Assembly: GCA_037974965.1 (NCBI GenBank)
Contig: JBBPFI010000008.1
Span: 1,240,001-1,304,000 of the forward strand
Source: Dacryopinax spathularia
Lineage: Eukaryota; Basidiomycota; Dacrymycetes; Dacrymycetales; Dacrymycetaceae
Length of the DNA stretch: 64,000 nucleotides
Reading direction: 5' to 3'
Part shown: positions 1 through 23,769 of the stretch, in pieces
How the letters are laid out: each line of letters opens with the position of its first letter
Numbering within the stretch: position 1 is the first letter of the stretch
Translations under genes and position numbers: made by a program
The notes under the pieces: model-generated
Database searches by the model: none
Seen by the model: the letters and a program-made list of their open reading frames with translations, nothing else
Told to the model about the DNA's origin: nothing

Positions 1-1047
1 TCATAGGTAGGAAGGGGGGGTCCTGAAGGATATGGCAAAGAGTGTCGGAAGGGCGGTACCTGAGGGGGTCCGCGGTGACAATGTCGGGAGTTGTGTTTTC
101 GGGCAAACCGACCATTGCGACGGCTGGTATCGCGGCGGACTCCCCACTATCGGAGCCCCACGACAAGCAGAGACTAAGTGCCTTGCAGAAAACGATGTCG
201 TGATGATCTGTGCCGCAAGTTGACGGAGCCTTGGGCCCAATGGTTTGGTCGTACCCTTGAACGATAGGTTGGACGATGCTCAACAATGCTGCGAGCCTAT
301 CTGTGGGCCAGCCAGGGCAGTCAGTTTGCAGGCTGCCATGTAGTGAAGACATTATCTCGAGGAGGGTGCTGAAGGGGGAGAATGAAGCGAGTGAAGGGGC
401 GCAGTGGCGGAAGATAGCTTTTTGTAGTTGAATACAGGCGGGCGGTTCCTGAGTCACAGTGACAAAGGCGAGAAGCGCGTACTCGCATATGACGGATAAC
501 TTCTGGTCTTCTTGCACAGCCTTGCATTGTGGTTCTTCGATAGTGCGGGTGTGGCAAGGAGAAGGGGCTGAGATTCCGGCAACTAGAATGACAATGGGGA
601 TCACCGGCAACAATAATGACAATGGAGATCAATTATATTGAGGGCACGTGGTGCAGCTTCCTTGAGTGGAAGGAAATAGATTCAGCATCCGTTGTAGAGA
701 AGACGAGAAATGGTTAAAATAGAAGGATGGGTGCAGCACCCTAGTTGCACAGGGTCCTCGCAAGGCGGAATCCCTGGTCAACAACCAGGTTTTCTCGGAC
801 GGTCCAAAATTGCATCCGGATCGGCACAAGCGCCGGATTATCTTTCGGTTGGGTACACTTAGTCATCGATTATGACTATTCCGTGTCCGAGTCATCCGCG
901 GACACGGAGTGCCCGTGCTTCGGTGCTTCGATTAGGGTTCGTTATGCCAGCTACAATATTAACCGTGCGTTATGCCTTGCACGATGAGTTGCGACCCGTT
1001 TCCCCTCTTTCTCCTACCACCATTCGACTTCGAGTACGTTATACGTG
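1..1047. other. No clear gene; possible fragment at left edge
   Basis: I see no gene I can name here. One minus-strand reading frame over roughly 1-350 stays open with protein-like composition and could be the end of a gene whose rest lies outside the window or has decayed. A 10-bp perfect stem with a 9-nt loop sits at 880-908 (tccgtgtccg / cggacacgga). Two GTCAT/GACT-type half sites near 860-895 lie upstream of the gene that starts at 1048. Confidence 0.3.
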
Positions 1048-1969
1048 ATGGACGCTGCCGCCGCCGGTGATATCGACGACAAGGCGACGATGCCCTGGCT
1101 CTATTGCAAGTGTGGGGTCTGTTGCGCTCTCCACGTTAGCGAGGCTCCCGGCAGCGAGGGGAACCTTTTCTATAGTAAGTACGACCTCACTATATGCGCA
1201 TATATGCTGACGTTTCGTTGTCAGAATGTCCCAAAGTGAGGTTTGACACGAAGTGCGATGTGAACGGTGCGTTCTCGAGTTCGCCTCGACATGGTTATGC
1301 TGATTCGTTTTAGTGTGGGTCTCCGACGTCGCGGTGAAGTGCGACGTGCCGGTCGACGCGACTATTATTCCCCCTCGCAAGCCGGGGCATCGTCGTTTGC
1401 TCTCCGAGGGCGTGGAAATCGCGTCGGGCGACTTGTTGTGCCCGGCCGAGGAGAAGGTGTTGGCTTCGTTGCCCGGCAGTGTTCTCCGCCGCGATGTCGC
1501 GGCGGGCTTGAAGTGCACCGCTGGGGAAGCGGGTCTCGAAGCGGAGGTACGCGAGGAGAAAGCGTTGAAAACTGGCGGTGCGCACGGCCTATCCGAGAAG
1601 GTCGTGGCGGAGGGTGTGGATGAAGCGGATCGCGCGAGCGTGCGTTTTTTCTTTTGTGCTTCTTGTACCCAGTTGAACGTTGTCTAGAGCGTCTCCACGA
1701 CGTTTTCCGAGTTGTTCGAGGACGACAAGCTGCCTGTCTCGGAGGAGATGTTGGGCGCATTGAAAGGGTTGCCTAGCTTGTTCGACGGGTCGACGGACGA
1801 GATGCATGTCTCCTCCGATGTCGTTCGCTTGTGCCACGATTTGCCCGACGTTGTCGGTGAGCTCGTCAAGCGCGTTCAGAAGGCGGAGAAGAGGGTGAAG
1901 AAGCGGGACAAGGAGTTGCGCATGTATCGTGCTTTCGTGGAGCGTGTTGGGGGCGAGGAAGACGTGTGA
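1048..1969 (+). CDS. GRF-type zinc-finger coiled-coil protein, subtype A (copy 1)
   Basis: Four exons fit with matching phases: 1048-1174, 1225-1266, 1314-1639 and 1688-1969, giving 258 residues. Residues 16-45 carry PWLYCKCGVCC, then GNLFYS, and the 42-nt second exon adds KCPK and a further Cys. This C-x-C ... C ... C spacing with an N/G-x-x-F-Y-x-C core matches GRF zinc fingers, which in known proteins (NEIL3, APE2, TOP3A) bind single-stranded DNA. Exon 3 has a family-specific segment beginning VWVSDVA with a PPRKPGH motif. The last exon ends in a predicted coiled coil (ELVKRVQKAEKRVKKRDKEL). The start is the first ATG before the finger. It is followed by a subtype B copy on the same strand. 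The function is unknown; ssDNA or RNA binding is inference from the finger. Confidence 0.72.
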
Positions 1970-2240
1970 GTCAGTAATAATCAAGTGGTTCGTGTAGTGT
2001 TTCGTGTACGCTATTCATATCCGTAGTGCGCTTTGATACCGTTTGGGGTAATGCACTTGTGTCCTAGAAACTGTGTGATGGTGATGACGAGTCATCGAAT
2101 CAATGTGATCGGAAAGATAGGAGAAATCGTTCATCATTCAAGTCTTGAAGTTTCGAATCGGCGGCGTGTTCGTCTCCTTTTCCCGATGTGAAGTCATGGT
2201 GAGTCGTCGGTTCATTTACGGCTCATGTCCCCTATTCTGT

Positions 2241-2351
2241 GTGGTATAAATTACCGGGCTCTCTCAAGTACGTATCGAGATGTTTTCATCGCCGAATCGC
2301 CTCTCACCCCTCGCTCACACCTGGTATAAATCGCTTGCACTTTGCACCGTC
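2241..2351 (+). promoter_or_regulatory. Candidate promoter of GRF copy 2
   Basis: Two TATA-like elements, gtataaatt near 2243 and gtataaatc near 2324, lie 20-110 bp before the ATG at 2352. An acgagtcatcg site lies further upstream near 2087. Similar TATAAA-CG elements precede the minus-strand copies at 20553 and 22589. Confidence 0.35.
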
Positions 2352-3750
2352 ATGTCCGCTTACAGGCAGCCGTCTTTGCCGTGGCCGTATTGCTCGTGTG
2401 GGTTCCCCGCTGTCGAGCTGATGTCGAAGCGTAACTTGTCGGAGGGACAGATCTTCTTCAGTACGTTTTGTTTGATGCGAGCTGTATGCGTGTGTTGCTG
2501 ACGCAGCACATGCGTAGAATGTCCTCGGACTGGGCAACAATGCGGTCTATGGTGTATGCGTTCCGATTCGACAGACTGCGTTGGTGATACTATTGACTAT
2601 GCGTAGTGTGGTTGCACGCTTATTACAAAACGAACGGATACCCGTTGGACGGGCGGCCGATCCCACCGGGTGAGAAGGGACACCGTGCACACCTTTTCAA
2701 GGGGGTCGAGGTGGCCAGCGGTCCTGCGTTTGACGATGCGGTATACACAGTGCAGCGTTTCCTCCCTGACCAGTCTGTGTTCGAATTGATCGATCCGTCC
2801 AATCCTGCGCGAGGCGTGCGTGCCTTTCAAGGGGTGCCGGATCATCTCACTGGACGGTGAGTGCCCTGGTGACATGACCAGCCGGATCCGGTTGAGGTTT
2901 TTGTACAGTACCTCCGGTCGTTCATCGTCTAGTCAAGCTTCGTGCGCGTCTGGAAACGGAATCAACAAGAGCAAATGCGATGGATCGTCCTCAACCGAGG
3001 GCATACAGTGCGGTGTGAAGCGTGCTGCAGCATTGGAGGAAGACGACCGAAACGTACGGCCACGGGTGTCCAATGCCGACACCAAGGGAAAGGGCAAAGC
3101 GGTGCGTGCAGGTCTTGACCATTGCAAGTCGCGATGACTTACCCATTTGTTCCAAGGTTGTTGTAAAGCACGAACCGGTACGTGTTTGCTTGATAGGTTA
3201 GCTGTTGTTCACCCTTTCGTAGGAAGTGTGGGAGATAGAAGACAATGACGGAGCGTACGATGACCTATTTGCGGTGCGTAGTTGACGTTGTGGAAGTGGC
3301 TTATGTCTTATCGTCGTTCTGTCGCAACTGTTGGTATTGTAGGCTCTGTCTACGTCTCGTGCGGCTATGCCCTCGTCCAGTGTTGCCTCCGGGAGCGGTC
3401 GCAACGGTGCTGGTGGAAGTGCCACTTCCGTGCAGTCGCAGATGGGGATCGATGTGCCGCTGTCGTCTATGAGTGCTGCGGATGGTCGTGCAGTGGCGGC
3501 GCCGTATACCGACGCAGCTTCGCTAAGTGAGCGGTTGGCCACAGGTCGATACGTGGGGAGCACGTTGGGAACCGAGAGTACAACGGTGGATCCCGACTTT
3601 ATGAGAACGATCGGTTCGCTGCCTCAGTTGTTCGAGCGACTGCGCGTGGAGCGGGATGCGCTGTTGCGGCTTATCGAAGAAAAGGATCGTCTTATTCAGA
3701 CCTTGCAAGGCGAGGTGGATGCGTGGCATGCGAGATCGCGGGCTGATTAG
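2352..3750 (+). CDS. GRF-type zinc-finger coiled-coil protein, subtype B (copy 2)
   Basis: Exon 1 (2352-2460) encodes PWPYCSCGFPAVEL followed by LSEGQIFFS. A 42-nt mini-exon (2518-2559) adds KCPRTGQQCGLWC, which completes a good GRF finger. Exon 3 (2607-2856) has the subtype B core VWLHAYY, YPLDGRPIPPGEKGH and FELIDPSNPARGV. Several short exons probably follow: a basic, NLS-like KRAAALEEDDRNVRPRV segment, then VVVKHEPEVWEIEDNDGAYDD, whose VKHE fits a SUMO-acceptor consensus. The last exon holds Ser/Gly-rich sequence and a terminal coiled coil (LFERLRVERDALLRLIEEKD). Exons 1-3 are well supported; the middle exon borders are less certain. Function unknown; nucleic-acid binding is inferred from the finger. 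Confidence 0.68.
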
Positions 3751-3882
3751 CGTGGCCAACTGGAGCGACTGCGATACAGTGCGGAGCAGCTTACGGATGG
3801 ACTCGAGGCAGTACGATACCTTAGATTGCATTGCGACGTGTACTACGAGTAGAAGGAATGACACTTTTCCCGCTGCGAATGA

Positions 3883-4861
3883 TTACCAGTCGACTTCTAC
3901 ATTGTCCGCATACGGAGCGTCCGGGTCGGCTGGTTTGATGACGGTAACCGAGCGGAGTTGGAACATGGCGTGATAGTGACGCTCTTTGGTAGTTCCTTCC
4001 TCCGTGTCGAAGCGTTTGCGAAGACGAAGCTCTTCCACAACGAGGTCCCCTCGGTGGAGGTTGTTTGGATCGAGCGGTACCCTATTGCGTAGTCCATCTG
4101 TTGTGGTGTACACGGCGTTGAACTGCTTCGGCTTAGCCCACGTAAGTAGCGGTATTGGTTTTCCAACGAGAACGCCTACGGTAGGTTGTCGATCCGTCTC
4201 CGCCTTGTTTGCCTCGAACGGGATTTGTATACGTCCGGCGATGATGGTATTGTAGCTGTGTCGGGTAGAGTCTGGTCCATGCTAACGTAGTAAGTTGCCC
4301 GTTTGCGAGTCCTTCGGTGCAGGACTCACGCGTGGGCGGGAAACTGTACTGATTCAGAACCCGGGCCGCAGCCTCACTATCGCTCTCGGATATGGGCCGA
4401 ATGCTGATCCATACCCTAGGCAGCGGTTTTCCAGCGGAGTCGAATAGTGAGAGGGAACTGATGTAACCGCAGACGTAGATAGTCACGGCGAAGTTGCGTG
4501 AGTTGACGAGGAAGTTCGACATGTTGAAACCGGTTTGCTGCGTTCCGAATTGCAAGTCGTCCGGCACCTTTGTGATGTAGTACGAGCCTCTGTCTCGGTT
4601 TTGCTCGTTCCGCATTGTCTTGATACGCCTGGCAGCCATGCCGACCGTCAATAATACTGCATTGCGTTGAGTGACGAGTACATACGATTTCAACCCATCC
4701 TCGAAACCGAACAGGTCGAGGTCGTCATTATCTTCGTCGCTGCAGAACGTGAGGCAGATACGTATATGGCTAGGTTCACGCACAGATGTAGCTCTTCCTC
4801 GACGCTGTTGTCGTCTGCCGCCGCGGCCGCTTCGCTCGGTGGGGAAGACCTGAAGATGTCA
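3883..4861 (-). CDS. Unknown-family protein X1, left member of a head-to-head pair
   Basis: Minus-strand exons give an acidic start (ELHLDEDNDDLDLFGFEDG), then LKSYVLVTQRNAVLLTVGM, then a beta-rich block VTIYVCGYISSLSLFDSAGK followed by PRVWISIRPIS. A short intron of about 31 bp near 4256-4287 leads into YNTIIAGRIQIPFEANKAE, and the gene ends with LHRGDLVVEELRLRKRF and a stop at 3883. Each block has a counterpart in the plus-strand gene at 5311-6491, so the two are paralogues. The true start may lie further upstream: an ATG at 5185 (MSKLEFALTTAALK) is a candidate first exon. No known family was recognised. The G-D-h-V beta pattern might suggest an OB-like fold, but this is not shown. Confidence 0.55.
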
Positions 4862-5310
4862 TGTAGTTAGCGCCGCGATCGTATCAGTCTTTTGGCTCAC
4901 GGTATCGTTGCTGTCGGGCTATTGTCTTCTGCCTCGTGAAGGATGGGCCGCTCCTGCTGTTCGTTTCGTGCCCTTGGATGCAGTCAGTTCAAGCTGATGT
5001 GATCATGCGAGGGGGGCTACGTACGACTTCGTTGGTGACCAAGCTGCGGCTGGTGTGCTTCGCTTCCTCTGCTGTGGTGCCATGGGTGCAATATGGTACG
5101 TCGTACGGGCAGTCCTCATTCCGACCTTTTCCTCTATTCCGGTCTTTAAGGCTGCCGTCGTGAGGGCGAATTCGAGCTTACTCATGGCGGCGTAAGCGGC
5201 GCCCGAAGGTGTCGTTGTTGGGGTGGAGGCTCCACGCCGGACTTTGAATCGTTTGTGTCAAGTGACGGGTGGACCCGTTACATGTCGCACTGTATCGGAC
5301 CGGTTTGTCG

Positions 5311-6491
5311 ATGTTCGCGGAAAACTCCGAATCGGTTCCGTTTCGCCGCAGATCGTCCCCAGGAAACCTGTTATTAACGCGCCAAAACCGGTCTCGTTGT
5401 TTTCTAGACGACGCAACGCGCATGGCGATGTTCATACAAGGTGACGAGTTCAATACCGTCACGACTCGGTCGCTCACTGCTTCTAGCGCCTACTGGTGGG
5501 CTATTACGGGACACTTGGGGATTCCCTGAAGCTGTGTTGCTCAACGAGACAAGCGACCGCGTTCGATTGTTCCCTCCTGATTACGAAGGCGTTTGCGACA
5601 TGTTTGCACTTGTACCGAAACTGGGCTCGAGCGACTCAACCCACGACCGCGACGTGGTGTTGCGATCGGAGGGCAACGATGGCCAATGTGTGGCTACGCT
5701 TCGTCTGCACGGTTTCATTTCGAAATGCGCTCTCGGTGTGTTGGGGGATTGGGATGGGTACGTAACGTCCACCGGTGACGTTGTTTTGCAGCTGAGCTTG
5801 GTGCAGAACGTTAAGAGGTTGTGTGGCAGCGTCGAATACCGTCTTCTTGGAGCCCGGGAGCGGTGCATTTGCCGATCAGTGGCGAGCCACGTGGAAAGCC
5901 GTTAGGCACGTTCGCCGTCTCATATCTGCCGAGTCACATCTGGCGCCGCTCGATCGCACTCCCAATAGCGAGATGGATACCATCCGATGTTCTAAGCGGA
6001 TTTTCCAGAAGGTACGAATGTGACAATGAGGTGTTTCTCACTAATTGTTGTGCTTGTGTTGCCAGGCCGGAAGTTTGGCTCCGGTCAACGTTCGAAACGT
6101 CGATGATAGTGTCACTAGAACCAGCCTGAAACGCGTAGAGAATGTTTGGATGCGAGACGAGGAGGTACAGTTTTGCATTCGCCGGCCTTCGGGCAGTTTG
6201 GCTCGGTGCAATCCCGCCGTATTTTCTCAGGGTGATTTCGTGGACGTCGGGGTGACATTCGATGTGGTCCGTAGAACTGGCGGAGTGAACGTGTATGTGC
6301 GGCTCGAACACATATATCAGCTTGCCAGCATGGAGAATATCAAGTCGCCGGTGAGTCGATTTAGTCGTGCAGGGGGGGAGCGTTCATCGTTGTTTGTTAC
6401 GCAGAGCATCACATCGATACGTGGGGACGCCATCCAGCCTGCCACGGGACGAAGAGCGGCAGCGTCGCTAGCCCACGTCGAAGACGAGTAG
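5311..6491 (+). CDS. Unknown-family protein X2, right member of a head-to-head pair
   Basis: Five exons fit in phase: 5311-5440, 5487-5774, 5830-6011, 6066-6350 and 6405-6491, giving 323 residues. Blocks in order are LLLTRQNRSRCFLDDATRM, VATLRLHGFISKCALGVLGD, NTVFLEPGSGAFADQW and FSQGDFVDVGVTFDVV. They align one by one with LKSYVLVTQRN, VTIYVCGYISS, RVWISIRPIS and LHRGDLVVEELRLRKRF of the divergent gene on the minus strand. The start at MFAENSESVPF is the first sensible ATG, but an upstream exon is possible. Function unknown. Together with its partner it forms a diverged, head-to-head paralogue pair beside the Helitron; whether it belongs to that element is open. Confidence 0.6.
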
Positions 6492-6699
6492 GACCTGATC
6501 GTGTGCAGATCTGCGGTGTATCGCTGACGTGCGATAGCAGAGACGACGCCGAGTGAGTGGAGCCGGCCCGAAGTGTGCGACACAATTAATGGTTCCTTTC
6601 CGGGTTCAAATGTTCGTAGATGGGGTGTTGTCGTTATATACTTGTAGCGCGCGCTCCCTGTCTCGTTTCAGTGGACTTGCCCTCTATCTGACTCTCGAT

Positions 6700-7435
6700 A
6701 TGCTCAAAGTAAGATGCAGCGACGGTGTGTTGATCGAGGTAGCAGAAAGCTTTGCTTCTCTGAGCAGTGTTTTGCGCCACCTTCAGGAAGGTATCGTTAT
6801 GTTATCACTCGCTTGCAAAAGGGATCGAGTCGAAAAATGGTGCAGATGCGACCCCGACCAGCGATGCTATCGACCTTCCGTTCGTGCCCGGTGCACTCCT
6901 AAAAACAGTGGGCATGGTTCTTGTGCGTATCGTTGTGCTCACAATTCGTTTCCTTAGCTATGCTCGTGGAGCGACCGTCATGTCGCCGAGCGCTCCGCGC
7001 AGTCCGGGAACAACCTCCATGCCTGTCAAGTTGACCGGGGAGGCGATGCGTTACCGAGCTGGGAGCGCGACGTCTTGTTAGGGGCTAACACGTCCTTGTG
7101 GGTCTTCTTGCTGATGTTGCGATTGTCTCGTCAGGGAGTGATTCTGTTTCGCAGGGAAGACCTTATACGTGTATAACTTTCACGTCTCGCCGTTGCTGCC
7201 GCTGTTGAAGTCACTGACGATGCATGCAGATTGGAGACTTTCTCGATATACATTGCTTGAGGTGGGTTTCTCTAGCGAGACGATATGGTGTCGCTCAATC
7301 TTCTATAGGAACGCTTGTTTCCAGGTGGTCGTTAGCGAGATGGAGCAGATGGACCGTCAATCCCTCGCAACATATTTAGGTACGGTTATTCGCCATGGGT
7401 CGGTGACGAACGTGCGTACGTCTTGGCTTCGTTGA
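6700..7435 (+). CDS. Divergent Skp1-like (BTB/POZ) protein
   Basis: Exon 1 (6700-6790) starts MLKVRCSDGVLIEVAESFAS and continues LSSVLRHLQE. Exon 2 (6846-6922) reads TSDAIDLPFVPGALLKTVG. These match the start of Skp1 and Elongin C proteins, where an SDG turn, a V-x-x-x-x-A-x-x-S-x-x-L helix and an I-x-L-P-x-V strand occur in this order. The downstream part is less certain: exon 3 (from 6958) contains LPSWERDVL, which recalls the I-x-x-W-D-x-x-F-L step of Skp1. Exons ending at 7261 and 7435 encode LLPLLKSLTMHADW and VVVSEMEQMDRQSLATYLG. Exons 1 and 2 join in phase; the junction after exon 3 is unresolved. Known Skp1 proteins link F-box proteins to cullin ligases; here two F-box-like genes lie about 10 kb away. 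Confidence 0.5.
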
Positions 7436-10400
7436 CATATACTCATGGTACGGAAGGATCGGTTGACATTGCCGGAGACGTCGCAAGTCACAAACCAGGC
7501 GTGGGAGCCGTGTCTTCCTGATATCGATCGCGAGTCAGGGCGTGTAACGAGTCCAACCTCTGGAATTCGTCACGCATCGAGGAAGTGAGGCGCAGGGAGA
7601 ACTTCGTTGGTGGGAATGGGCGCAACACAACCAAGCCGTCGAGCGTTCGTACGCGGGACAGCATTACGTACAAGCTTTGGGAAGTGCGACAGCTCGCAAT
7701 GTCAACTATCGCTGTATCCAGAGAGCGCCCTTGGCTCTTATAGTCCGTGTAGGTGTAAGCAGGAAGCAGAGGTAACTGGGACCTTGTGATTGACGTACCT
7801 TGCCAACGAAAGTGCCGACTGACCGGTACGATTGGGACGACGTTGTCGGGTAGATTGGGATGCAAGCGGCCACAACCCTTCACGTGGACGAACACCACGA
7901 CTGCTCGACAGATCCCTTCTTCACTCTTTTCAACACGCGCCCCGCATACGACACCTTCCGCTCCGTTAACGATATGCTTCGCTATGGCCACATTTTCCGT
8001 GACCATCACTCTCATCCCGTGGAATAGAGGAATGCAACCCAACGAGTCGCCCGATGTTGTAGATGAGATGGACCATGCACCGAGACGGCGTTCCCCGTGT
8101 AATCTCTTGCGCTGCACACGGTCGACCGAGTATAGAAGATGTATATCTTGGCCCAGCGCAGCGGCGTGTTTTCTACTGAGGATGTCATTGAGCGAGTCGC
8201 GCAAGCTTTTTGTTGCAGTTATGATCGGGGCGTCTTGAAATCGTTCGAGTTCGCTGGGTCGCACCATGGCCAAAACATCGAGTTGTCTCGTTCTCAGAAC
8301 TTCAGCGTTGGTGCAACCATACGAGCTATACTGTTTACGGACGTCAGTTACCGCTTTACCAAGCCGAAGCCTCGCTAACAGGTCGGCCCACTGGCTATCC
8401 GCAGACTGTCGCATGTTCTTCGTAAGCAGCACCACGCTTCGAACTTGGCTCCACAGGAAAGCGCCATGCATCGCGTCTTGACCGTGAAGCGATTGCGTTA
8501 TGGATGGTACGGCCCTCTCCGCCAGGTTGCTGTCGAATAATGTCTGACCCTGCACTGGACGAAGTTGGCCAAAGTCGCCGAGGAAAATCACGTTCACACC
8601 GCCGAAGGGAAGCGACAAACCATCGTCTCCTTTCGCCAAGCTTAGTCTCCGAGATATGTCGCTCATGAATTTGGCTGATATCATTGAGACCTCGTCAATG
8701 ATCAGGTACCGCACGTCTCGCCAAAGTTGTTCAAGCGTTCCGAGGTTGATCTGCTTGGACGACTGTGGGAGGAGTGTTAGCGCGTGAATCGTGTATCCAC
8801 CAATGACGGTCGCGGCCGCTCCAGTCGGAGCCGAAATCCGAAGACACTCGGGCACACCGAGCATGTCGAATAAAAGCGTGATACCGCGGATGACATGACT
8901 TTTGCCCGTCCCGCCCATGCCTCCAACATACAACAGCAGTTGGTCGCTCTTCCCGTTCTGAATATGGCTCGCTACGGTATGGATCACCTGCGCTTGTTCT
9001 GCGTTGTTCGTCATTCCAAGGCGCTCCACGACTTCAGCGGCCGGTGTGTTTTCCGTCAGCGCGGCGCTTGCGATATGAAATGCGGATGAATCGCTGCGCA
9101 AGTCGTCTAGCCTTTGTACCTGTGTTACTGGCCTCACCAGGTCACGCGCAATCGGCACGGAACTGCTCGTTACCGACTCTCTTAGTGTTGGACGCCGGTC
9201 CTTGCGAAGTTCTGTCATGGTCTCCGTAAAGTCCCGCACAAGAACTCTATCTGTGGCCGTTGCGCTCCGTATGTCCATGGATGGTGCTGGCGATCCCGCT
9301 CCATCTAGCGAGGTGGTCTGGCTTTCTCCGTGATGTAGCAGATTCCTTACGTGAAGGGCAATCTCGTTATTCAAGCGTTTCATGCTCTCCTCCATCTCGC
9401 CGATCCGGTGCGACTCGCTGCGCTCTGGCTCGTCCATCTCCGTCTCGGGTACGCGCGGCTCACATTCATCATCGACATCTACTTCGGTGGTGTCAAGATC
9501 GTTATCTGTGTGAGCGGCACGTGTTCGGTCCCTTGCGTCTTTGCAGTCGCGTAATGTGCTGATATTTCTCATAGTGCGAAGCGTGCTTTCGGAGAAATCC
9601 ATCGCCGCGTACGCTTGTTCCCATGCCTCATGGTCTGCTTTCAAATCACTCACGACTCTCCACGGCTTGAAAACGATGAGCATCGCTCGACACCAGGCAC
9701 GAAACTCCGTGTCTTTTTGCGGCATCCTTCTTCCCAGTACGACAGGTATGGCTGCGAAGGTAGCGCTGTATGTAAGTCGGTGCGTCTCATGCTGAGGATG
9801 CTGTGGCAAAAACATTTCTTCCAGGTCATCTCCGTTGTCCTCTTCGTCATCCCGCTGCACGGCCGCACCTCCCTCCCGCTTTATTCTTTCCTTCTTTGCT
9901 CTCGCTACGAAGTCATACAAGTTCAATGATTCGAATTCAGGCTGTTGAGGTCTGCAGGTATAGTCTAGCAACTGGTTCGTAGCAGAACTATGCGAGCTGG
10001 ATACGTCTAGTACGAACTCAAGCGGTGTACCGCCGGTGTCGGCGGTTTCAAGTTCGCCTCGAAGAGCCCGGTTACGTCCACGGCGGTCCGCTTCGCTAAC
10101 AAGGTTCCAGAATTCCCCCGGCTCTATTCCGCGCATCGCAGCCATCTCGATATTCTTGGTATCCTCGGCGGACCAGTGTGCGAGGCGAGCGGATCGGAGG
10201 CGTGCGTTGCGACCTTCATCAGTATCGTCTTGTAATATGTATGTGACGACGGAGTCATCATCCGCATGCGTAGTCACGCTCATCGTTTGATAGGTATCCT
10301 CTGTCTCTGTAACGTCCTCGATCACTACGCCTGCACGGATAAGTTGTTGCCGGACTACGTCAGCGCATTCGGCATACTCGTACTCGGTTTCTCGCGGTAT

Positions 10401-13985: not shown

Positions 13986-14181
13986 ATGTTCCCCTGTTGT
14001 CGCGAAGGCGATCAGGCAGCGAATCTGCTCATGCCCCTAACCGGCACCAGCAGACCCTTCGACAGAAAGTGGCGCCACGGATGCTCCCTAGCGGATCGTT
14101 CGCGCCCGGGATACAAATACAGGCCATCTCGATGGCGAAGCGCCAGCTCACCTCAACAACTTGCGTCTTGTCAGTCTTATC
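13749..14181. promoter_or_regulatory. Shared upstream region of RepHel and GRF copy 3
   Basis: This interval separates the divergent RepHel (minus) and GRF copy 3 (plus). It contains a perfect AP-1/Gcn4-type site gatgactcatgg near 13792-13803, a cttgagtcatcc near 13906, and agactcaca near 13922. Such bZIP sites recur upstream of other genes in the island. No other gene is seen. Confidence 0.35.
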
Positions 14182-15830
14182 ATGTCCCAAATCCACCCTT
14201 ACGTTCCATGGCCATATTGTCACTGCGGTCTACCGACCGTCCAGTTGCGCTCCAAGCGAACTGCTACTATGAACAGCGTATACTTCCGTACGCTACGCCT
14301 CGCTCGCGATCTGCGGTGAGAAGTCTCACTGACGTTGTTCAGGTTGCGTCAAGCCCGCTAAGAAATGCACATTCTTTCGTGCGTGATGCCGTCGCCCATC
14401 GCTACGTTCCAACTGACAATACTGTAGTCTTCTTGGATACCTATCTCGAGCGTAACGCGTTGCCCCCCGTGGGTTGGCCCGCTCCCCCATTTCACCCACT
14501 CCACGTCCCGCTGTTACCCACGAATGTAAAGCTTGCTGAACAAGCTCATCTACTCGCTGCAATGGATCTGGTTGATCACGCGATGATGACCAGAACATCC
14601 GTCACGGCCCTCCATGAACGAGACCGTAGCGGATTACCGACGAAACCAAGCGAAACTTCCACTAGCTTGAACACGACCAGCACGAGCGCTGATACTAGCG
14701 TCCCTTCTTCCTCTACTGCGAGCAATATACCTCTCCCTACGGATACCAGTCCTTCCGCTTCTTTACGCGTCACTCCCACCCAAAACCCTAATATCGGCCG
14801 AAGCATTACTCCGCCGCACTTTTCCCCTCTGTCTGATAACAGGCCGCTCCACATCGATACCAAACGTTGGTGCCGGCGAGAAGACGAACAAACAGCCGCG
14901 ACAACGAACTCGCCTATCGCCGAGGATGACTCGACGACGCAAACTAAACCCATCCAGCGGACGAACCCGACCGCAACATCATCAACCGCCACCATCCAGT
15001 TCCCACGGTTCGAGACTCCGCCGCCCAGCGTGCCCTCTTTACCAGCCTCTAAAACAGTACCTTTGCCAGGCTCAGCAGCAAGAGAACGGCTTCCCTCGGC
15101 TTCCGCGTCAAGAAACGGTCCGCTGGCGATCAATGGTGGGACAGGCAACAAACTATTCCAACCCTTGCAGGGTATGGACGGAAGCATTGCGACGACAAAT
15201 AACCATCCGACTGGCTCCTCGGCGGTTCGCTCCGAAGCCTCTACCACGGCACTCACGCGTTCTGCGCCGGATCGCTCTTCCCGAACCTCCTCGGTATCGG
15301 AATGCGTAACCAAAGGACGCAGTCCACCCCCCACACCTCCACTACCCCGACATCACAACGTGCTGCAACCAACGACTTGCATCAAACCTTTCTCCCGAGA
15401 CGCCTCAAAGGCGCAAACCTCTTCTCTCTCTCAACGTCATAGTTCCTCTTCATTGACATGCAACCCCGCGACGCCTGCTTCCAACAGGGTGCCCACCCCA
15501 TCCCCTTTTCCTTGTGCCACACCAAAGGTTAAACCCCCGGCCGCCGAACCGCCAAACGCGTACACTCGCGTCGGTGGGGTTAAATTCCGTCCTCGCTCGC
15601 TCTCATTGTGCTCCTCTTCCAGCAGCTCACTTCCTGCCGCAGTTGTCGATATCTGCGACCGCAACGTCTCGGAAACATTGGCATCGTTACCCACCTATCT
15701 TGCACAGTTGCTCCAAAGGATTCGCGAAGCAGAGTCACGCAACGCGCGTAACAACATGTATATTGCAGAGCTCGAAAGGGAACGGGACGCATTGCGATCG
15801 CGAACCACGCCCTCCATCACGACCCGCTAA
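14182..15830 (+). CDS. GRF-type zinc-finger protein, long Ser/Thr/Pro-rich member (copy 3)
   Basis: Three exons fit in phase: 14182-14287, a 36-nt mini-exon 14343-14378, and 14428-15830, giving 514 residues. Exon 1 has YVPWPYCHCGLPTVQLRSK, close to subtype B; the mini-exon gives CVKPAKKCTFF, so the finger is present but the GR/GQ core is replaced by MNSVYFR. Exon 3 begins LFLDTYLERNALPPVGWP, matching the subtype B VWLH segment, then runs through about 350 residues of low-complexity Ser/Thr/Pro sequence. It ends in a coiled coil (LAQLLQRIREAESRNARNN). The open frame upstream of 14182 is a chance extension into a non-homologous stretch. It diverges from the RepHel gene across about 430 bp. Function unknown. 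Confidence 0.65.
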
Positions 15831-15922
15831 CCAGTATTGTGCCAACTAGTAGCAGCGCAGCGTTACCTGTACATTATCGTTAATGATATTCACCGTGCGA
15901 TGCCTTGCAAACGGTCCCCTGC

Positions 15923-16870
15923 ATGACTCCTTCGGCCCAGCCGAATGCTTCCGCCCGCTGCCCATGTTCTCGGACCGCTTCGCTTAGGCGCGACGTTGCC
16001 TCTGGGCGCTCACCAATTGCGCAGCGTTCAACTGTGCATGCCGATTACTATCATCATGACTGGTACGTACAGAACCACCATTGTTACACGAACACGAGTT
16101 CATCGCGCTCAGCTCCCACCAAGGTCGCATTTGTCACCCATGACGCTTTCACCGTCCGGCTACAGCCCGTACGATCGTGGTACGTCGTCGAAATACCGAA
16201 TGGAATCGATTCACCCCCCACCTGGCCTACCCTTCTTCATCGCCTTCGACCAGGCGACATTGCGTGGGTCCGCGATCGTTTCAACCGAGTACAGCAATGT
16301 TGGTTCTTGGACGCGGATCGCCGTTGGGTCGTAGGTGCCGCTGCGAGCCGCCACCCAACCCGACCCCAGCTTGTGCTGTGCGTCGTGGATGAGCCGTGCT
16401 GGATGTCTTTGATCTCTCTGATCAAGAAGATGAAATACACCAATCCGGATATCGATGAGCAGGTGCGCACCGATCCATCCAACACAGGCCGCTGCCAACT
16501 GACGACTACCCAGGCAACTCCGCACGCAACCGTTTTGGGATCCTCATGGGATCCATTACCAGACCGACCGGATCTCATGATCACAATAGGAGTCGGTACG
16601 GGCCCGTCGTACCCGCCACTGCTTCCTGACACCCCTCCGTTCGCACTTTGGGTGTTCGGTGCGGACATCCTCAGCCGGCGCATTTGGCTTCGATGCCAAG
16701 ATGGGATCTGGCGCTTGGTTCAGGACGGTATAACCCATCCTGATGGCAGCGGTCGTATCTTGTCCACTGTCCGCCTTGTACCGGTCTGGATATGGGCGTC
16801 CTCTTGGAATGTAAGAGCGAAGCGGAAAGCACTCCAACGAGGGTCGAATGGTCGGAACGAACCGGACTGA
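15923..16870 (+). CDS. Unknown protein, single exon, Trp-rich
   Basis: An open frame of 315 residues from MTPSAQPNAS. The N-terminus has clustered Cys and His (RCPCSRT and later HADYYHHDWYVQNHHCY) that could bind metal. The body has two weakly similar segments, LRPGDIAWVRDRF followed by CWFLDADRRWVVG, and FALWVFGADILSRRIWLRC followed by QDGIWRLVQDG, which look like an internal repeat. The C-terminus is basic. I do not recognise the family. It follows GRF copy 3 by about 90 bp on the same strand and precedes the F-box/NTase-like gene. Codon structure and length favour a real gene, but no homologue was identified by eye. Confidence 0.4.
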   Translation: MTPSAQPNASARCPCSRTASLRRDVASGRSPIAQRSTVHADYYHHDWYVQNHHCYTNTSSSRSAPTKVAFVTHDAFTVRLQPVRSWYVVEIPNGIDSPPTWPTLLHRLRPGDIAWVRDRFNRVQQCWFLDADRRWVVGAAASRHPTRPQLVLCVVDEPCWMSLISLIKKMKYTNPDIDEQVRTDPSNTGRCQLTTTQATPHATVLGSSWDPLPDRPDLMITIGVGTGPSYPPLLPDTPPFALWVFGADILSRRIWLRCQDGIWRLVQDGITHPDGSGRILSTVRLVPVWIWASSWNVRAKRKALQRGSNGRNEPD

Positions 16871-17174
16871 GGCCGCGCATCACAGCGCTCGCACTGATGA
16901 TACCTCGTTGTTCGTGCTGGTGCAACGATGACAACGACGACATATATCCTACACACAGCCCTGTAATACTGTACGATAGCCAACGCACGGAGCCTGATAC
17001 TGTCTGGACACGTGTACAACCGACAACCAATCATAACTGTACTTGTTTCGCACCCGATCACACCCCAGCTTCGACCTCAGCTTCCGATTGGCTCTTTGGC
17101 CGTCGACGCCCCCGCAACATTCCGCGCGGTACATATAGGTTTGTCGGCCGACAAAACATCCCAGCTTCATCCCA
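16871..17174. other. Intergenic, no gene seen
   Basis: This stretch separates the unknown gene from the first F-box/NTase-like gene. Overlapping frames here are short and lack convincing start or splice context. Confidence 0.3.
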
Positions 17175-18267
17175 ATGGACGCTCGCAACTTACACCCCAC
17201 GTCGCTCCTCAATCTGAGCCATGGGCTTTTTTCCGAAATGCTCGATCACTGCAGCTCCGCGCTCCTGGTCCGCCTGTCCGACCTGGACGGCGACCTTGGG
17301 CACCTTGCCCGGTCTCACACGGTGAAGCGATGGAATGTCAAGAGCGTACTCCACCACTTCTTCTCGGATCCAGCGGAGCTCTGCTCGGTCATGCGTCGCA
17401 CCGGTGCAGTGATCAGCGGTTCCCAGCCGCTACAACTCCTCCTTGACATCCGCTGGGAGGAATCCGACCTGGATTTCTACGTGCTACCAGCAACCGCACA
17501 TACTCTCTTCCGTGCCGTCCAAGCCGCAGGCTACGAGGTCCATCAAATCGTCCCTGCCAACTGCTTTCCATCGCGGCAACATGTGCCTCTGTACGGCACG
17601 AATAACGACATTCGTAGCGGTGAGGTTACTATCGTTACGACTCTACACTTCCTGACCCGTCACCAGTTGCCACGTTGCACAAACGCATACGATCCGGCGT
17701 TACCCTGCAGGTTCAAATAATAGTCCCCGCGCACGGCCTGCTAACCTGTATCCTTGGATTTCATTCCAGTACGTCGCACATGTACATAATCCTGTCCGCG
17801 CTCATCTCCACTTCGCAGCATGCGTTATGAATTGGTTGACCTGGGACCGTCTATTCAGCCTGTACCCGGACGCGACAATGTCGCGGATCGCCCTCGCGGT
17901 TGATAGGCGCATCGGACTCCCTACACTGAACGCTATCGATAAGTACAAAGACCGTGGCTTCCGCTATCAATCCGACTTGCCACCACAGGTATTATCGAAT
18001 ACTTTCCCCGTCGGGACACGATTCCTCGGCGATTCACAATCCCTCATTCTCCCTCAAGGGGACGGTGCTTCAACATTGAAAATCGATTCTCCGGCATCGC
18101 AACCGTCCTCCGAATGCTACAGCGGTTCCTGGCTGTTGCTGAAAGACGATCATGGACACTATTTTCATCGCTTTGCACGCACGCCGCACATATACGGAGC
18201 GCCACACCGGGACTTCGTACGGTCAGGCAAAATGTTAGAAACCACGCTGTCGTACTCCCATATCTGA
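17175..18267 (+). CDS. F-box-like / nucleotidyltransferase-fold protein N1
   Basis: Three exons join in phase: 17175-17619, 17667-17768 and 17819-18267 (introns of 47 and 50 bp), giving 331 residues. Residues 10-60 resemble an F-box-like helical region (LLNLSHGLFSEMLDHCSSAL, then WNVKSVLHHFF). The core MRRTGAVISGSQPLQLLL and EESDLDFYVLP has the GS ... D-L-D layout of nucleotidyltransferase folds. Spliced exons give VTLQVQIIVPAHG, then FHSTCVMNWLTWD and RLFSLYPDATM, hallmarks of a multi-copy family I recall from basidiomycete genomes. A GTRFLGDSQ turn follows. Catalysis is not established for this family; the fold call is inference from the motif. The last 40 residues overlap the antisense end of N2, so the 3' end might differ by a small intron. 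Confidence 0.68.
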
Positions 18268-19294
18268 TTACGTTTCCTTCGTCGCACGTGCCTTGCTACC
18301 GAAAGGTACGCTGGGGTTATAGACAATGATTCTCGAGATTTCGTGCTGCACCACATACCCAGACTCAATGCGCGTCAACCACCAATCCGTACAGCAGTGG
18401 CGCAGTGGGTCTCGGCATGTCACCCTCTCCTCCTCTACGTCAGCCCGGCAAGTCGACACCCAGGTCTGCTCGTCTCCAATCCACCTCACTCCAGGCGGAC
18501 ATTCGCTTCGCCTCGCCTCGCTCCACGCAACATTCCGCAGCAGTTGCGGCCATCGATCGCTCGGAGCCACATCGACGCTTGAAATCAAAAACGAGACCTT
18601 GGATCGCAGAGTAGCATTCGGGTACAACGAATACGCGTATCTCGTCGACATAAAGTTCATAAAGCCCGCTGCACAATGCTGAACATCTCGGCAACAGGAT
18701 GTACGACGTCTACGCACTTTCGGGCAATGCGAGAACGCTCAAACTAGGCGTGAACTTCACGGACACAACGCGCATGCGTGCTCGACGAGGGCACTCGATA
18801 AACGTAACTACAGCACGCATTAGCAGCGGGCCGTGTCTGTACGGTTCGTACTCACCGCCGGTCGCGTCCGCTGGCAGTGGGACAGTCGATTGTAAGCTTG
18901 TCGAGGCAGTACCGCTTCCAACCTGGGCTGTGATCGCGCATCCACAATGCAGTAAGACCTCCACGACGTCTGCTGCGTCAACAGATCGGACATAAACATC
19001 GAGCATCCATTCACTGTTGGGCCGACCGAGCAAGAATGACAGCAATCCCATTCCGGACAAAACTGCACCGGTTCGATCCATCACTTCTTCCATGGGCCTC
19101 GTGTCGGTAAGGTATGGTCGCAGGACACGATGCGGGTTCCATCGCTGTATCATCATCTGGCGAACGAAAGAACGCTCGTGCGTGTTCAACTTTCCGACCA
19201 CCACCAGCTCCGGAAGATCGCAATGGGAGAGGATGCGGTGATACGGTTCCGCCGCCCCGACTCGAGCTAGTAGCGACGGATACGACTTTGCCAT
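18268..19294 (-). CDS. F-box-like / nucleotidyltransferase-fold protein N2, convergent paralogue of N1
   Basis: Two exons, 18718-19294 and 18268-18668, joined by a 49-bp phase-1 intron at the same place as the second intron of N1; 325 residues. The parallel blocks are YHRILSHCDLPELVVVGKL (F-box-like), MDRTGAVLSGMGLLSFLL, TGFMNFMSTRYAYSLYPNAT and GVRWIGDEQTWV. Compared with N1 the signature SGS is SGM and SDLD is WMLD, so two of the residues expected in an active nucleotidyltransferase are lost. The start MAKSYPSLLARVG is chosen because it matches the N1 length; an in-frame ATG lies 81 bp upstream at 19375. Its stop codon directly abuts that of N1. Confidence 0.65.
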
Positions 19295-19828
19295 GGCCAC
19301 TCCGGTCACTCTGCTAACGAGCCAATCCGCAATATATCTAATGTAGTTATGTAGTCCATGACAAACGCTTACCACACCAGAGTCATCGCGCTTTGCTCCC
19401 TCTCGTCATGTGGCTCGACTAATATCAGCGCGGTCCGGATAAATCCGGCTGCTAGTGGGCTGTCTAGCATTCCACGTTCATCCCCACGCAAACAATACAC
19501 CACGCAGCCTGGTGCCTGCCGGCACGACCCGTATTCCCGTGCTACAACCCGTCCGTCCATACCAATCCACGCTGGCGCACAGCGGGCCGTAAACCCCAGC
19601 GCAGGCTAAGTATGTCAACGGTCGAGCTCTATGCTCCCAATTCGCGCCTGTGGCTAATCTGCACACAATCGAGACTAACCGTATCAGGTCGGATAGAGGC
19701 TGCAACATCGGCGCTAGTGCGACGTAACCATCTAAAAAGAACAACGCCATATTCGTGCCGACTCGCTTGGTCTGGTACGCCCTCTAGAGAATCCAATATC
19801 CCGATGTGTTTCGCATATTTATCTACTT
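19295..19828. other. Intergenic, no gene seen
   Basis: The interval between the N2 start and the 3' end of GRF copy 4. Only short overlapping frames on both strands; nothing with homology to the neighbours was found. Confidence 0.3.
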
Positions 19829-20553
19829 CTACAACCATGCAAGCCCGTTGTCAATAACATGGTACGCTTCTTCCAGCCTCCGTTCCAAACCCGCCACGCA
19901 ATTCTCCTCTTCCTCAACCCTACTCCGTAGCGCAGCGACCAACTGTCGTACAGGACGAGCTTCCATCGTCATCACCTGTTCACATTCATGCACTGGATCT
20001 GCTAGACCGATCGCTTCCATCATCGCACAGAGTTCGGCATCGTCCTGTGAAGCGAAACTTGCTGAATCCCGTGCTGCAAACAGGGGAACGACCCACTCAC
20101 CCTGAAACCCTCCGTGATACGCTTACGACCATACCGATCTCGGAATGGATACGGTAACAGATGATACGCCTTCTCCGCCGCCTTCCTCCGCACGTCATCA
20201 GACGCCAAAGTCCCAGAACTACTCGAGTACACTTGATGACCGGCGAACCCAGGCGGTACGACTTTCCAAGGTGACGTCAAACCACACACGTCGGCAATAG
20301 CGCTCGCCCAAACTATCAAAACGTTAGTCGCAGGTGACACGTTCCATCAACCCGCCCACCATGTACATCGCAACGCATATTCATCCCAAGCTGCGGACAT
20401 CCTGACTCGGTTGAGCACGACGTGTCCACGTAACAAACGGAGACACTCACTGTAGAAAAGGTTTCCTGCAGACCCAGGAGCGTTGCTGACTTGAAGTGTA
20501 CAAGCTACACCGCAATCGCAGTAGAGCCAAGGCAAAACAGGCAAATCAATCAT
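19829..20553 (-). CDS. GRF-type zinc-finger coiled-coil protein, subtype A (copy 4)
   Basis: Exon 1 (20451-20553) has PWLYCDCGVACTLQVSNAPG then AGNLFYS, close to copy 1. The 42-nt mini-exon 20360-20401 gives RCPQLGMNMRC. Exon 3 (about 20101-20312) starts VWASAIADVCGLTSPW with PPGFAGH, matching VWVSDVA...PPRKPGH of copy 1. A last exon near 19829-20061 encodes DDAELCAMMEAIG and a terminal coiled coil (LVAALRSRVEEEENC). A TATA-like agcatataaagc lies about 50 bp upstream of the ATG, and several GACTCA sites lie at 20630-20730. Phases are conserved with the other copies. Function unknown. Confidence 0.7.
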
Positions 20554-20838
20554 GTTGTGGGGAATGAGACGAGCCGAGACGGCCCACCTGCAAACCGCTT
20601 TATATGCTCTCCGCCGCTTTCTGCGTACATTGACTCACTCGAACTGCACTCCCATCTGAATGGGGCCACTCGTCGACTCACATCACTCGCAATCGATGTT
20701 GCCGGAAGATCGGCGGAGTTGGATCCCATGACTCCGCTGTAACACGCGTGACAATCCACAATGTTCGCTCTGTACGCTCGCACTCGCTTCAGTGACTCGC
20801 TCTGCGCCGTGAGGATAACGATACGCACATCATCTGCC

Positions 20839-21450
20839 CTCATGCGGCCTCCGTGTCGTCCGTTATGAGGCAACCATCCATACGGCTCCCGTAGTCGTGC
20901 CTACACATTGAGCTTCAGTCGACGATGTTCGTTGATAAACCGAGGCAATGCATGCACAGAGACATTCGCTACTTGGTATGTAGGCGACGACGACGTACAT
21001 CCGACATAGTGAAAGACAACGGATGCGGCCCGCTTGACGCCACGCACACGTGAGCGGAACGCATACAGCACACCCGTGCGTCGCCAGCTGAGCATACTGC
21101 CAACGCAACCCTTTCCACCAAACGACCACCACCGGGAATGGGCCAAAGACGCTTCATCAAACCAACAATACCTCGCAAACGCACCTACGTGAGTACATTC
21201 CTGAACCAGACGAATCAATCACTTCCCGCTCTTCCAGGATGAAACGGAGTCAGGCGAGGACGCTCCATCGGCCAGAACGCCCGACCTGAGCCGCCTCATC
21301 GACCGTATTCAAGCCATCCCTGAGTTCATAGAACGATGCGAGGCCAAGCTACACAACCTTGAAAACATCGCCGAAGCCGATGAGATCCTCATTTTCGAAC
21401 TCCAGCAGGAGATCCAACAACTTCGCTCGACCACACAACGTCCACGGTGA
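20839..21450 (+). pseudogene. Probable decayed GRF family member (copy 5)
   Basis: A well-formed 3' exon, 21238-21450 after a gtgagt...ttccag intron, encodes an acidic start (DETESGEDAPS) and a coiled coil (IERCEAKLHNLENIAEADE) like the last exons of the family. Upstream, ERNAYSTPVRRQLS resembles the LERNALPPVGWP block of copy 3. Where the zinc finger should be, the frame starting MRQPSIRLP meets TAG exactly at the expected PWPYC position. Either the finger is mutated or I have the wrong frames. Called a remnant with modest confidence. Confidence 0.35.
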
Positions 21451-21549
21451 CCGGCGCACAACCAGCTCATTTATTATTACAACTTCGCCGCATCTTGTAC
21501 CGTAGCTACACAATTCGCAAACTTTTCCATCAGACGACCCGTCTCGTAC

Positions 21550-22589
21550 TCATCCGGATCTAAGACCGAATCCCACTTTGGCTTGTGACACGGCAACTTG
21601 TAACGACTCTACGTCCGCGTGTCTCTCCATAACCGCCGACGCAAGGATGCGTAAATCGTCCTCCAGACGCGCAAACACTCTGGTCAGCGTGGCCGTAGCC
21701 GTTTCGACGGACTCCACATCGCTATCGCCTGCACAGACCGCGGCAGGCGGCACTTCCAACGTAGCAACGTCGTCCGTCTTCTTCTCAGACTCCTTCTTCT
21801 CCCTGTTTGTGCGCCCACGACGCTTTCTCCTCGAGTCGTCCTCATCAGACTCGTCCTGCCCGCATATAAGCCCAGAAGCTCACAGCGTCGATGCGAACTC
21901 ACCTCGTTCGTGTCATACTCATCACTCCTGCGCCTCTGGCGCTTTCTCGCATTACGACGACCTGCTCTGCCCTTACTACCCTCCGGCCCCGTTGTCTTGC
22001 TACTGCCCACCGCGCCGCTCCGCTCCTCCTGAGTCATCCGTTTCCGACTGCTCCCTCGTCAGTCATCGCACCGTACCACAGGCACGTCACTTACCCGCCC
22101 CGAATACGATCCAGGTGTGCAGCCAGCGCGATAACACCTCTAGACGGGTCCGAAGGATCGGACAACTCAAACTGATCCTGGTCAGGGAGCCACCGCAACA
22201 CCTGCGCAACCGCCTCGTCCAACTCCTTTCCATCAGCCATTTCAACGTCTTCGGCTAGCAGCGGTACATGACCGTCTTCCTCCGGCGGGACGGGCCGTCC
22301 GTCCACCGGATACGCAAACTCCGAGTACAGCTGGTGCAACCAGACTGTAGCGTGCCGTCAGTCTCCAATGTATGCGCCGAGAAAAAAGGATGGCACCCCA
22401 TGTGTCGCACTGATAACCCGTTCGAGGACACTCTGTAACCCTTGAGTCACCACTCGAACGGATGCTGAATGTAGGCGTACTGAAAAAGAATTGTCCCTCG
22501 GACAACGGCTGGCCAGACTGCAACTGGACAGTAGGCAGTCCGCAACGACAATACGGCCACGGCAGCGAGGGTTGGATCCAATGCACCAT
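21550..22589 (-). CDS. GRF-type zinc-finger coiled-coil protein, subtype B (copy 6)
   Basis: Exon 1 (22481-22589) encodes PSLPWPYCRCGLPTVQLQSG and LSEGQFFFS, almost the same as copy 2. The 36-nt mini-exon 22397-22432 adds KCPRTGYQCDTW. Exon 3 starts at 22344 with VWLHQLYSEFAYPVDGRP, VPPEEDGH and FELSDPSDPSRGV. A very basic stretch follows (KGRAGRRNARKRQRRRSDEY, then a further DDSRRKRRGRTNREKK run) that fits a nuclear localisation signal, and the last exon ends in a coiled coil near RVFARLEDDLRILAS. A TATA-like gtttataaag lies about 90 bp upstream. It is the minus-strand counterpart of copy 2. Confidence 0.72.
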
Positions 22590-22908
22590 TGTTGCGCTCT
22601 GCAAGGACGATCGGGATGTCAAATACGAGGTAGTTCGGGAATAGTCAAAACATACCTTGGCTCCCACAAAACTAGTCGCTTTATAAACAGTATCCAACGA
22701 AACATAAGAGTCACACAACCAACGACTCACCTCCTGTTCGCACTGCGCCCGACATGGTAACTCCGCCAAACAAACTTAGGGGTGCGTCGCAGCCTGCAAG
22801 CGTCACGGTCCAAATCACAATCACATGGGGAAACAACCATTGACTCATCATAAACCTATTGTACCAATCGACTCAAAACCGACTCATAAGCGATCGAGCG
22901 TTCACACC

Positions 22909-23769
22909 TCATCCGATCTGACGAAGCGCATCGGCCAACTCTTTCTCCAACTGAACGATCCTCTTGTCCCTACGCTTCACCCGTTTTTCCAACAGCTCGA
23001 TCCGGCCTTGGAGTTCCTCGAAAAACGCGGGCATCGACTTCAACGTCTCAACCATCGAGTTGGAAACGGCAGTAGCCGCGCTGCTCTCCGCCTTCACCTC
23101 GGCCGTCGACTTGAACGCGTTTTCGTAATCGCTCATCTCCGTTTCTCCCTGTTGTTGTCGTTAGTACACCTTGTAATACAACATCGGAGCGATCCCACTC
23201 ACAGCAGAGTCCGATTCCACTGGCCCCTCATACGAGGGGGAACGCTTGGGACGCAACAGTAGCTCGTCCGGCGACTCAGACCGCACCCTGATCCGACGAC
23301 CGCGACTTTGCAACAATCAGCTAGAGTCCAACCGCATACACAATGCGTACCTCGCCAACTCCGCCGGCAGCTTGTTCATCACGAATCGAACACCCGCCCC
23401 GAGCAAATCGACATCCGCCACACGCACCCCTTCCGGGACGTACACGTGATGTCCGGGATGCCCGGGCAATACGAGTTCCCTCGGACTGGCGATCCCTCTC
23501 TCGTTCGCGATGTCGATGACCCAAACTACGTCTTCTTTCAGCGACGGTTCCACCCAAAGGAACAGTACGTACCATTCGTAGTGCAACGGAGATCCTCCCT
23601 CATACGAGCACATTCTGCAACAAATCAGCGCATATACAAACGACTCCGCCACCTTCCACTTACTAAAAAACAGGTCGCCAGCGCTGTCGGCATCCTTGCT
23701 TACGTGCAAGGCACATAACAAACCGCAACGGCATATCAACCACGGCACCACGGTCTCGGCCTGAGGCAT
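22909..23769 (-). CDS. GRF-type zinc-finger coiled-coil protein, subtype A (copy 7)
   Basis: Exon 1 (23664-23769) has VVPWLICRCGLLCALHVSKD and AGDLFFS. The 42-nt mini-exon 23573-23614 gives KCARMREDLRC. Exon 3 starts VWVIDIANERGIASPREL with LPGHPGHHVYVPEGVRVAD, matching the subtype A PGH block. The final exon (22909 to about 23136) is MSDYENAFKSTAEVKAES followed by a classic coiled coil (RIELLEKRVKRRDKRIVQLE), very similar to the coiled coil of copy 1. The frame is open upstream to 24120, but the ATG at 23769 gives the family length. It is the minus-strand counterpart of copy 1 and the last accessory gene before housekeeping sequence. Confidence 0.7.

Follow-up and report, generated by a model that had tools for sequence, protein, structure and literature searches.

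Fungal Helitrons have been described as elements of 6-14 kb that carry a RepHel and few extra genes (PMC6431247, PMC4289320, PMC5148889), with lengths reaching 14 kb (PMC6431247). Among them, the FoHelis are Helitron2-like, non-canonical fungal Helitrons of ∼5-11 kb, one subgroup of which has one further predicted gene (PMC5148889). The HELPO1 Helitrons of Pleurotus carry extra genes of unknown function, namely one to four cap genes, and a GRF finger is not named in the available part of that report (PMC4289320). Certain plant Helitrons have an RPA-like accessory gene for the handling of single-stranded DNA beside the RepHel, and single-strand binders were taken up by Helitrons at least three times (PMC4683698). 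Binding to single-stranded DNA or forks is reported for the GRF fingers of APE2 and NEIL3 (PMC6122073, PMC9266487). Here we describe a giant Helitron2-like Helitron in a stretch of 64,000 nucleotides from Dacryopinax spathularia (assembly GCA_037974965.1, contig JBBPFI010000008.1, positions 1,240,001 to 1,304,000 of the forward strand; hereafter the window). Judged by its conserved frames, the element encodes a RepHel and about a dozen further genes, among them six genes (A to F) for proteins with a GRF-like zinc finger that is split between two exons.

The element shares with the FoHelis the RepHel, asymmetric terminal inverted repeats whose 3' arm lies ∼20-40 nt inside the end, a putative hairpin at the 5' end and, with FoHeli1 and 2, a start at TC; it differs from them in its end sequence (GGGGTTCTCTAT), its size (23-26 kb) and its content of six GRF genes and two accessory genes, G1 and G2 (PMC5148889). 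The proposed likeness to the plant Helitrons lies in an accessory function for single strands, which would fall to a GRF-like zinc ribbon here and to RPA there (PMC4683698).

Boundaries, copies and RepHel of the element

The genome contains four copies of the element, each with six finger genes: the window copy, C5 (23,453 bp), C7 (25,724 bp) and C14, with 23.5 kb between its termini. Of these, C5 and C7 were read whole and C14 in pieces. C5 and C14 share 98.5 and 98.9 percent identity at their two ends, beyond which the similarity breaks off abruptly; the alignment of the window copy, at 67-69 percent identity, has the same limits. The start is TCCCTGGTCAACnACCAGG and the end GGAGGGGTTCTCTAT in the window, C5 and C14, while C7 ends with GGAGGGTTTCCTAT. 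The termini bear asymmetric inverted repeats of 11 bp (CCTGGTCAACG / CGTTGACCAGG), which by eye match at 11/11 positions in C5, C14, C7 and a small derivative and at 9/11 in the window. The 5' TC and the 5' palindrome are present and no target-site duplication was seen; with the end placed at ..TA, the flanking bases read by eye were A in 4/5 and T in 5/5 insertions. Gene by gene the elements of the window, C5 and C7 are collinear, with extra DNA between D and E in C7.

Five exact matches to the left end were found in the genome, in the four copies and at C8:1007410. The latter (L069 911-1269) is a non-autonomous derivative of ∼0.36 kb, in which the left 92 bp are common to the giant element (93 percent) and the right repeat is kept through GGAGGGG, the last bases being different. 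The ends would thus appear to be mobilisable without the genes between them. When up to two mismatches were allowed, nine left-end matches were obtained, the five exact ones being the elements just described; one of the four weaker matches was read (C7:1677373) and had no similarity to the element. Seven matches to the right repeat were obtained with up to three mismatches, of which five belong to the described elements and two, C3:2574510 and C2:3083615, were not read.

The RepHel frame scored 123.6 bits for Helitron_like_N and 75.1 bits for PIF1, and contains an HUH motif at codon 848, YxxxY at codon 1033 and a Walker A motif at codon 1616. All three motifs recur in the RepHels of C5 and C7. 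The element would move by rolling-circle transposition. At least 45 Helitron_like_N matches were found in the genome. A helicase tree was calculated from 22 of 30 loci (45 found), being those with more than 150 bits against the window copy, and in it the RepHels of the four elements with finger genes form one clade (100/100).

The split-finger genes and their conservation

The sequence-only reading had placed six finger genes in the window, with the C-x-C half of the finger on exon 1 and the C...C half on a mini-exon of 36 or 42 nt between phase-1 introns. This description was borne out: at all six positions an ATG opens the finger frame, exon 1 encodes a C-x-C-G half finger and the mini-exon supplies the third and fourth Cys. 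Intron 1 (48-57 nt) and intron 2 (47-53 nt) are both GT..AG introns of phase 1. The mini-exons (30-42 nt, counting all variants) have lengths divisible by three and are flanked by phase-1 introns; their skipping therefore preserves the frame. An architecture scanner was applied that looks for CxCG, an aromatic end, a phase-1 donor, a 30-48-nt exon with two Cys, and a W or F past the next acceptor. It returned six loci in the window, all inside 771-23928, and none in 40 dinucleotide-shuffled windows, which rules out a chance origin of the architecture; for gene B it also gave an alternative mini-exon of 42 nt. No locus was returned in 137,315 bases around Helitron helicases, comprising 29 of 30 helicase loci (three of them inside copies of the same element) and the flanks of C3 and C18, by this strict scanner, which misses a C-x2-H variant at C18.

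Other parts of the earlier description needed adjustment. The third exon, said to begin with VW(L/V) throughout, does so in A and F (VWV) and D (VWL), whereas E has VWA, B has LWL and C has LFL. A heptad-rich C-terminal stretch is present in all six proteins, but the coiled-coil ending stands out clearly from shuffled sequences in A, D, E and F (at most 9 of 500 shuffles as good) and not in B (58/500) or C (46/500). The corresponding counts per 500 in C5 were 18, 69, 28, 1, 2 and 0 for A to F. A conserved stretch like P..PPG..GH lies downstream of the finger.

For each of the six spliced fingers the top Pfam family was Zn_ribbon_GRF (PF06839; expect values, E, from 2.8e-5 to 0.034), and 17 of the 18 fingers from the window, C5 and C7 matched it with E no higher than 1. 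In the PDB, a profile built from all 18 fingers found the NEIL3 GRF structures 7jl5 (1.4e-5) and 7omk (1.5e-4), with one other match up to E 10, at 0.59, and hhalign gave 94.6 percent between the element finger and a GRF finger without a split from another part of the genome. The GRF assignment made in the sequence-only reading was therefore upheld. Four Cys with GRF spacing, followed by an aromatic W or F, are present in 18/18 fingers; the fingers of NEIL3, APE2 and Top3 have the same spacing, with W after the fourth Cys as in the element (F in C). Unlike these, the element fingers lie on proteins without a repair enzyme, have lost the GRF arginine, are interrupted by two phase-1 introns and are followed by P..PPG..GH.

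In a tree of the 18 fingers (C14 was left out as a near copy of C5) the sequences grouped by position A to F and not by element, requiring 5 changes, the minimum, compared with a mean of 12.4 after shuffling. Support for the orthologue groups was weak in A (78/80), B (79/70) and D (40/5), and A/E/F separated from B/C/D at 100/100. Over 99-105 codons, the proportion of synonymous differences (pS) was 0.63-0.84, near saturation, and that of nonsynonymous differences (pN) 0.05-0.35 in all six genes. Taken together, the grouping by position and the pS and pN values indicate that the six genes probably predate the divergence of the elements and were kept by selection, and great age, one of two options given for the family in the earlier reading (the other being fast evolution), gains support. 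C5, C14 and C7 have the predicted splice sites as well, apart from two exceptions, both in gene F: its mini-exon measures 39 nt in C5 and the near copy C14, and in C7 the second intron is missing, so that mini-exon and exon 3 form one frame, joined at the predicted place. The fusion supports the splice model and contradicts the view that the finger is always split by a mini-exon, and the 39-nt cases contradict the lengths of 36 or 42 nt; both statements hold for the window.

Accessory genes and related loci in the genome

The coordinates of all features are given in Table 1.

Table 1. Features of the element, in window positions.
Feature	Position	Strand	Remarks
Entire giant Helitron2-like transposon, 23,158 bp	771..23928		homology with C5 and C14 ends sharply on both sides; similar termini in C7 and the 0.36-kb derivative
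5' terminus TCCCTGGTCAACAACCAGG	771..789	+	begins with TC and holds a short palindrome; left arm of the asymmetric terminal inverted repeat
GRF gene A	1048..1966	+	type I; exon 1 1048-1174; 42-nt mini-exon 1225-1266; C-terminal coil frame 1688-1966
GRF gene B	2352..3747	+	type II; exon 1 2352-2460; 36-nt mini-exon 2518-2553; C-terminal frame 3343-3747
Accessory gene G1	3928..4630	-	no usable Pfam/PDB match; beside many RepHels of the genome
Accessory gene G2	5498..6329	+	no usable Pfam/PDB match; adjoins G1
RepHel open frame, 2,092 codons stop to stop	7491..13766	-	Helitron_like_N, PIF1 helicase, DUF6570
GRF gene C	14182..15827	+	type II; exon 1 14182-14287; 36-nt mini-exon 14343-14378; most basic finger, net +7
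Accessory gene	15923..16867	+	single open frame in the window; conserved in C5 and C7
Accessory gene(s)	17175..18264	+	GS..SDLDFYV motif
Paralogue of the 17175..18264 gene	18271..19405	-	weak BLAST similarity
GRF gene E	19832..20553	-	type I; exon 1 20451-20553; 42-nt mini-exon 20360-20401; coil frame 19832-20122
Small coiled-coil gene frame, no finger seen	21205..21447	+	between E and D; conserved in C5 and C7
GRF gene D	21553..22589	-	type II; exon 1 22481-22589; 36-nt mini-exon 22397-22432; coil frame 21553-21879
GRF gene F	22912..23769	-	type I; exon 1 23664-23769; 42-nt mini-exon 23573-23614; coil frame 22912-23160
3' terminus	23896..23928	+	other inverted-repeat arm CGTTGGCCAGG, 22 nt from the end; end GGAGGGGTTCTCTAT

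G1 and G2 accompany Helitrons well beyond the four copies. After manual merging of search matches, 30 of the 32 G1 loci and 16 of the 18 G2 loci lay within 13 kb of a Helitron_like_N match, where ∼4 percent would be expected by chance, and 30 of the 45 Helitron_like_N matches have at least one of the two genes within that distance. Both are candidate core genes of this fungal Helitron lineage. Two G1+G2 pairs, at C5:1825801-1828514 and C7:3836-6644, have no Helitron_like_N match within 13 kb and may be parts of broken or divergent Helitrons. Pfam and PDB searches of the other accessory proteins likewise gave nothing usable, and no RPA match was found in the RepHel frame or in ten proteins and pieces searched. 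The GS..SDLDFYV motif is presumably reminiscent of nucleotidyltransferases, a likeness that none of the searches returned.

By a strict pattern and by protein searches, the finger genes were placed only in the four elements. With at most one mismatch allowed, the strict pattern, made for exon 1, matched 21 times in the 29.2-Mb genome (reversed control 0): the 20 exact matches form four clusters of five, each around a Helitron_like_N match, and the remaining one is a mismatched stray. A looser pattern, PW..C.CG, matched 33 times (reversed control 2), and 24 of these matches fall in the four clusters, six in each. The nine others (C3 twice, C5:533111, C5:820741, C6, C7:664846, C9, C13:481981 and C15) were not read; C5:533111 and C13:481981 translate to PWLLCLCG and PWLVCSCG and are possible finger genes. 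At E up to 10, all 14 matches to D exon 3 and all 16 to exon 1 of F from C5 were inside the four clusters in protein searches, so that none of the nine outside sites was matched by the latter query, which distant members could escape. The element copies thus hold 24 finger genes, compared with four PF06839 matches elsewhere in the genome.

The next RepHel branch after the clade of four is that of a sister Helitron at C18:350686, with 53 percent identity. Its surroundings contain homologues of G1, G2 and the paired genes of the 17-19-kb region, as well as a finger gene (L072 ∼2800-3250, minus strand) that, when spliced by eye, has PW..C-x2-H, a 30-nt phase-1 mini-exon with two Cys, and P..PPG..GH. 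This variant matched the finger profile at 95.5 percent (E 1.6e-8), and its exon 3 had no second match in the genome. Its presence in the sister Helitron indicates that the split finger is probably older than the four elements.

Among the host genes, two Top3-like GRF fingers are unsplit, and in an APE2-like gene the split, located by eye, seems to fall a few codons later (both names were given from sequence). The host GRF gene at C4:128924 (L004 1501-1660) has, by eye, an apparent phase-1 intron one codon before the third Cys, which corresponds in place and phase to the first intron of the element's finger genes; in this host gene a long insert also precedes the fourth Cys. Beyond the motif it has no profile similarity to the element genes (hhalign probability 0.9 percent), so that common descent of the two introns is only a possibility.

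Possible roles of the finger proteins

The element itself, with its boundaries, four copies, small derivative, RepHel motifs, one-to-one conservation of finger genes under purifying selection and mini-exon splice model, is in our view very nearly certain. For what the fingers do, we propose that the element brings its own GRF/coiled-coil proteins to handle single-stranded DNA during movement, and we regard this reading, function included, as having an even chance of being right. The RepHel would nick and then peel off one strand; the finger proteins, joined via their coils, would attach to the single strand thus exposed or to the fork, shield it and direct the RepHel or host factors. In plant Helitrons this task is attributed to RPA-like proteins, for which the finger proteins perhaps stand in here. 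Binding of single-stranded DNA is suggested by analogy with NEIL3 and APE2, and dimerisation by the predicted coils; hetero-oligomers of the six coil-bearing fingers with the finger-less coil protein could assemble on the strand.

Several results weigh against this proposal. None of the six window fingers, although PF06839 is their best family, reached the Pfam gathering score of 25.9 bits (14.7-24.6 bits). The namesake arginine of G-R-x-F is lost in 17 of 18 fingers (R in one, K in another one), fingers A and E carry almost no net charge (-2 to +2), and C alone among the fingers has a strong basic charge (+6 to +7) in each of the three copies compared. Counted in this way, a Top3-like finger of the genome also comes out neutral (5 K/R, 5 D/E), so that charge alone settles little. 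Finger genes were placed at just 4 of 45 Helitron_like_N matches, plus the C18 variant (of the other RepHel flanks, those of C3 and C18 were read in part), so that Helitron movement as such does not depend on them. A stop interrupts the RepHel frame of C5, and at the C14 match the open frame measures 1,010 codons; both copies may thus be inactive. An AlphaFold model of the C-terminal exon of G2, which contains no finger, was unusable (mean pLDDT 46).

Because of the lost arginine and the neutrality of A and E, a regulatory role for some of the fingers is nearly as likely. In its full form this explanation keeps the element as described and makes the finger proteins regulators that bind promoters, chromatin or silencing factors, or set the choice of target. 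Six diverged paralogues of two subtypes would suit several targets. Neutral fingers would act as protein-contact modules, and the conserved finger-less coil gene and frame-preserving skipping of the mini-exons would both yield inhibitors. The strong basic charge of finger C in the three copies compared and the single-strand binding of the nearest sequence relatives of known activity speak against it, and as a whole we consider it a real, somewhat doubtful possibility. That the finger genes are host genes captured as cargo and carried without need, as in maize Helitrons, is improbable. Helitrons do capture gene fragments (PMC6431247), and the C4 host gene apparently shares the place and phase of intron 1. 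This gene is dissimilar past the motif, however, and the excess of pS over pN in six genes at one-to-one positions across three diverged elements speaks against this reading, neutral cargo being rejected on that ground. The clustered host gene family of the sequence-only reading, into which a Helitron helicase would have landed by chance, would account for six genes lying near one another. It is ruled out by the four copies of the whole set: the genes are part of the Helitron, recur at four loci with their order unchanged wherever it was read, and are bounded by sharp homology breaks at common termini. The 0.36-kb derivative speaks against it as well. Such an insertion has next to no chance of being the explanation.

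Within the single-strand reading, a bolder version is possible, which we hold to be rather unlikely: an ancient lineage of giant Helitrons would have evolved its own multi-subunit machine for single-stranded DNA, in which six fingers and a finger-less partner, linked by coiled coils, replace RPA in rolling-circle transposition and skipping of the mini-exon switches a finger on or off. G1 and G2 would be two further core proteins, common to the wider lineage in this genome.

No Helitron with GRF genes was found in titles and abstracts of the open-access literature, among the matches listed, and GRF is absent from the available part of a fungal screen for transposon co-option (PMC10799480). The comparison covered the literature alone and no protein database, and other fungi can be expected to hold uncharacterised relatives. 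At 23-26 kb, with a stable and selected gene set, the element stands against fungal Helitrons described as 6-14 kb with few extras. If the fingers handle single strands, they would represent one more independent gain of single-strand-binding proteins by Helitrons, and what a Helitron uses beyond its RepHel would become directly testable. The element also serves as a caution for other fungal genomes, where GRF-type genes that lie in clusters and are uncharacterised may belong to transposons.

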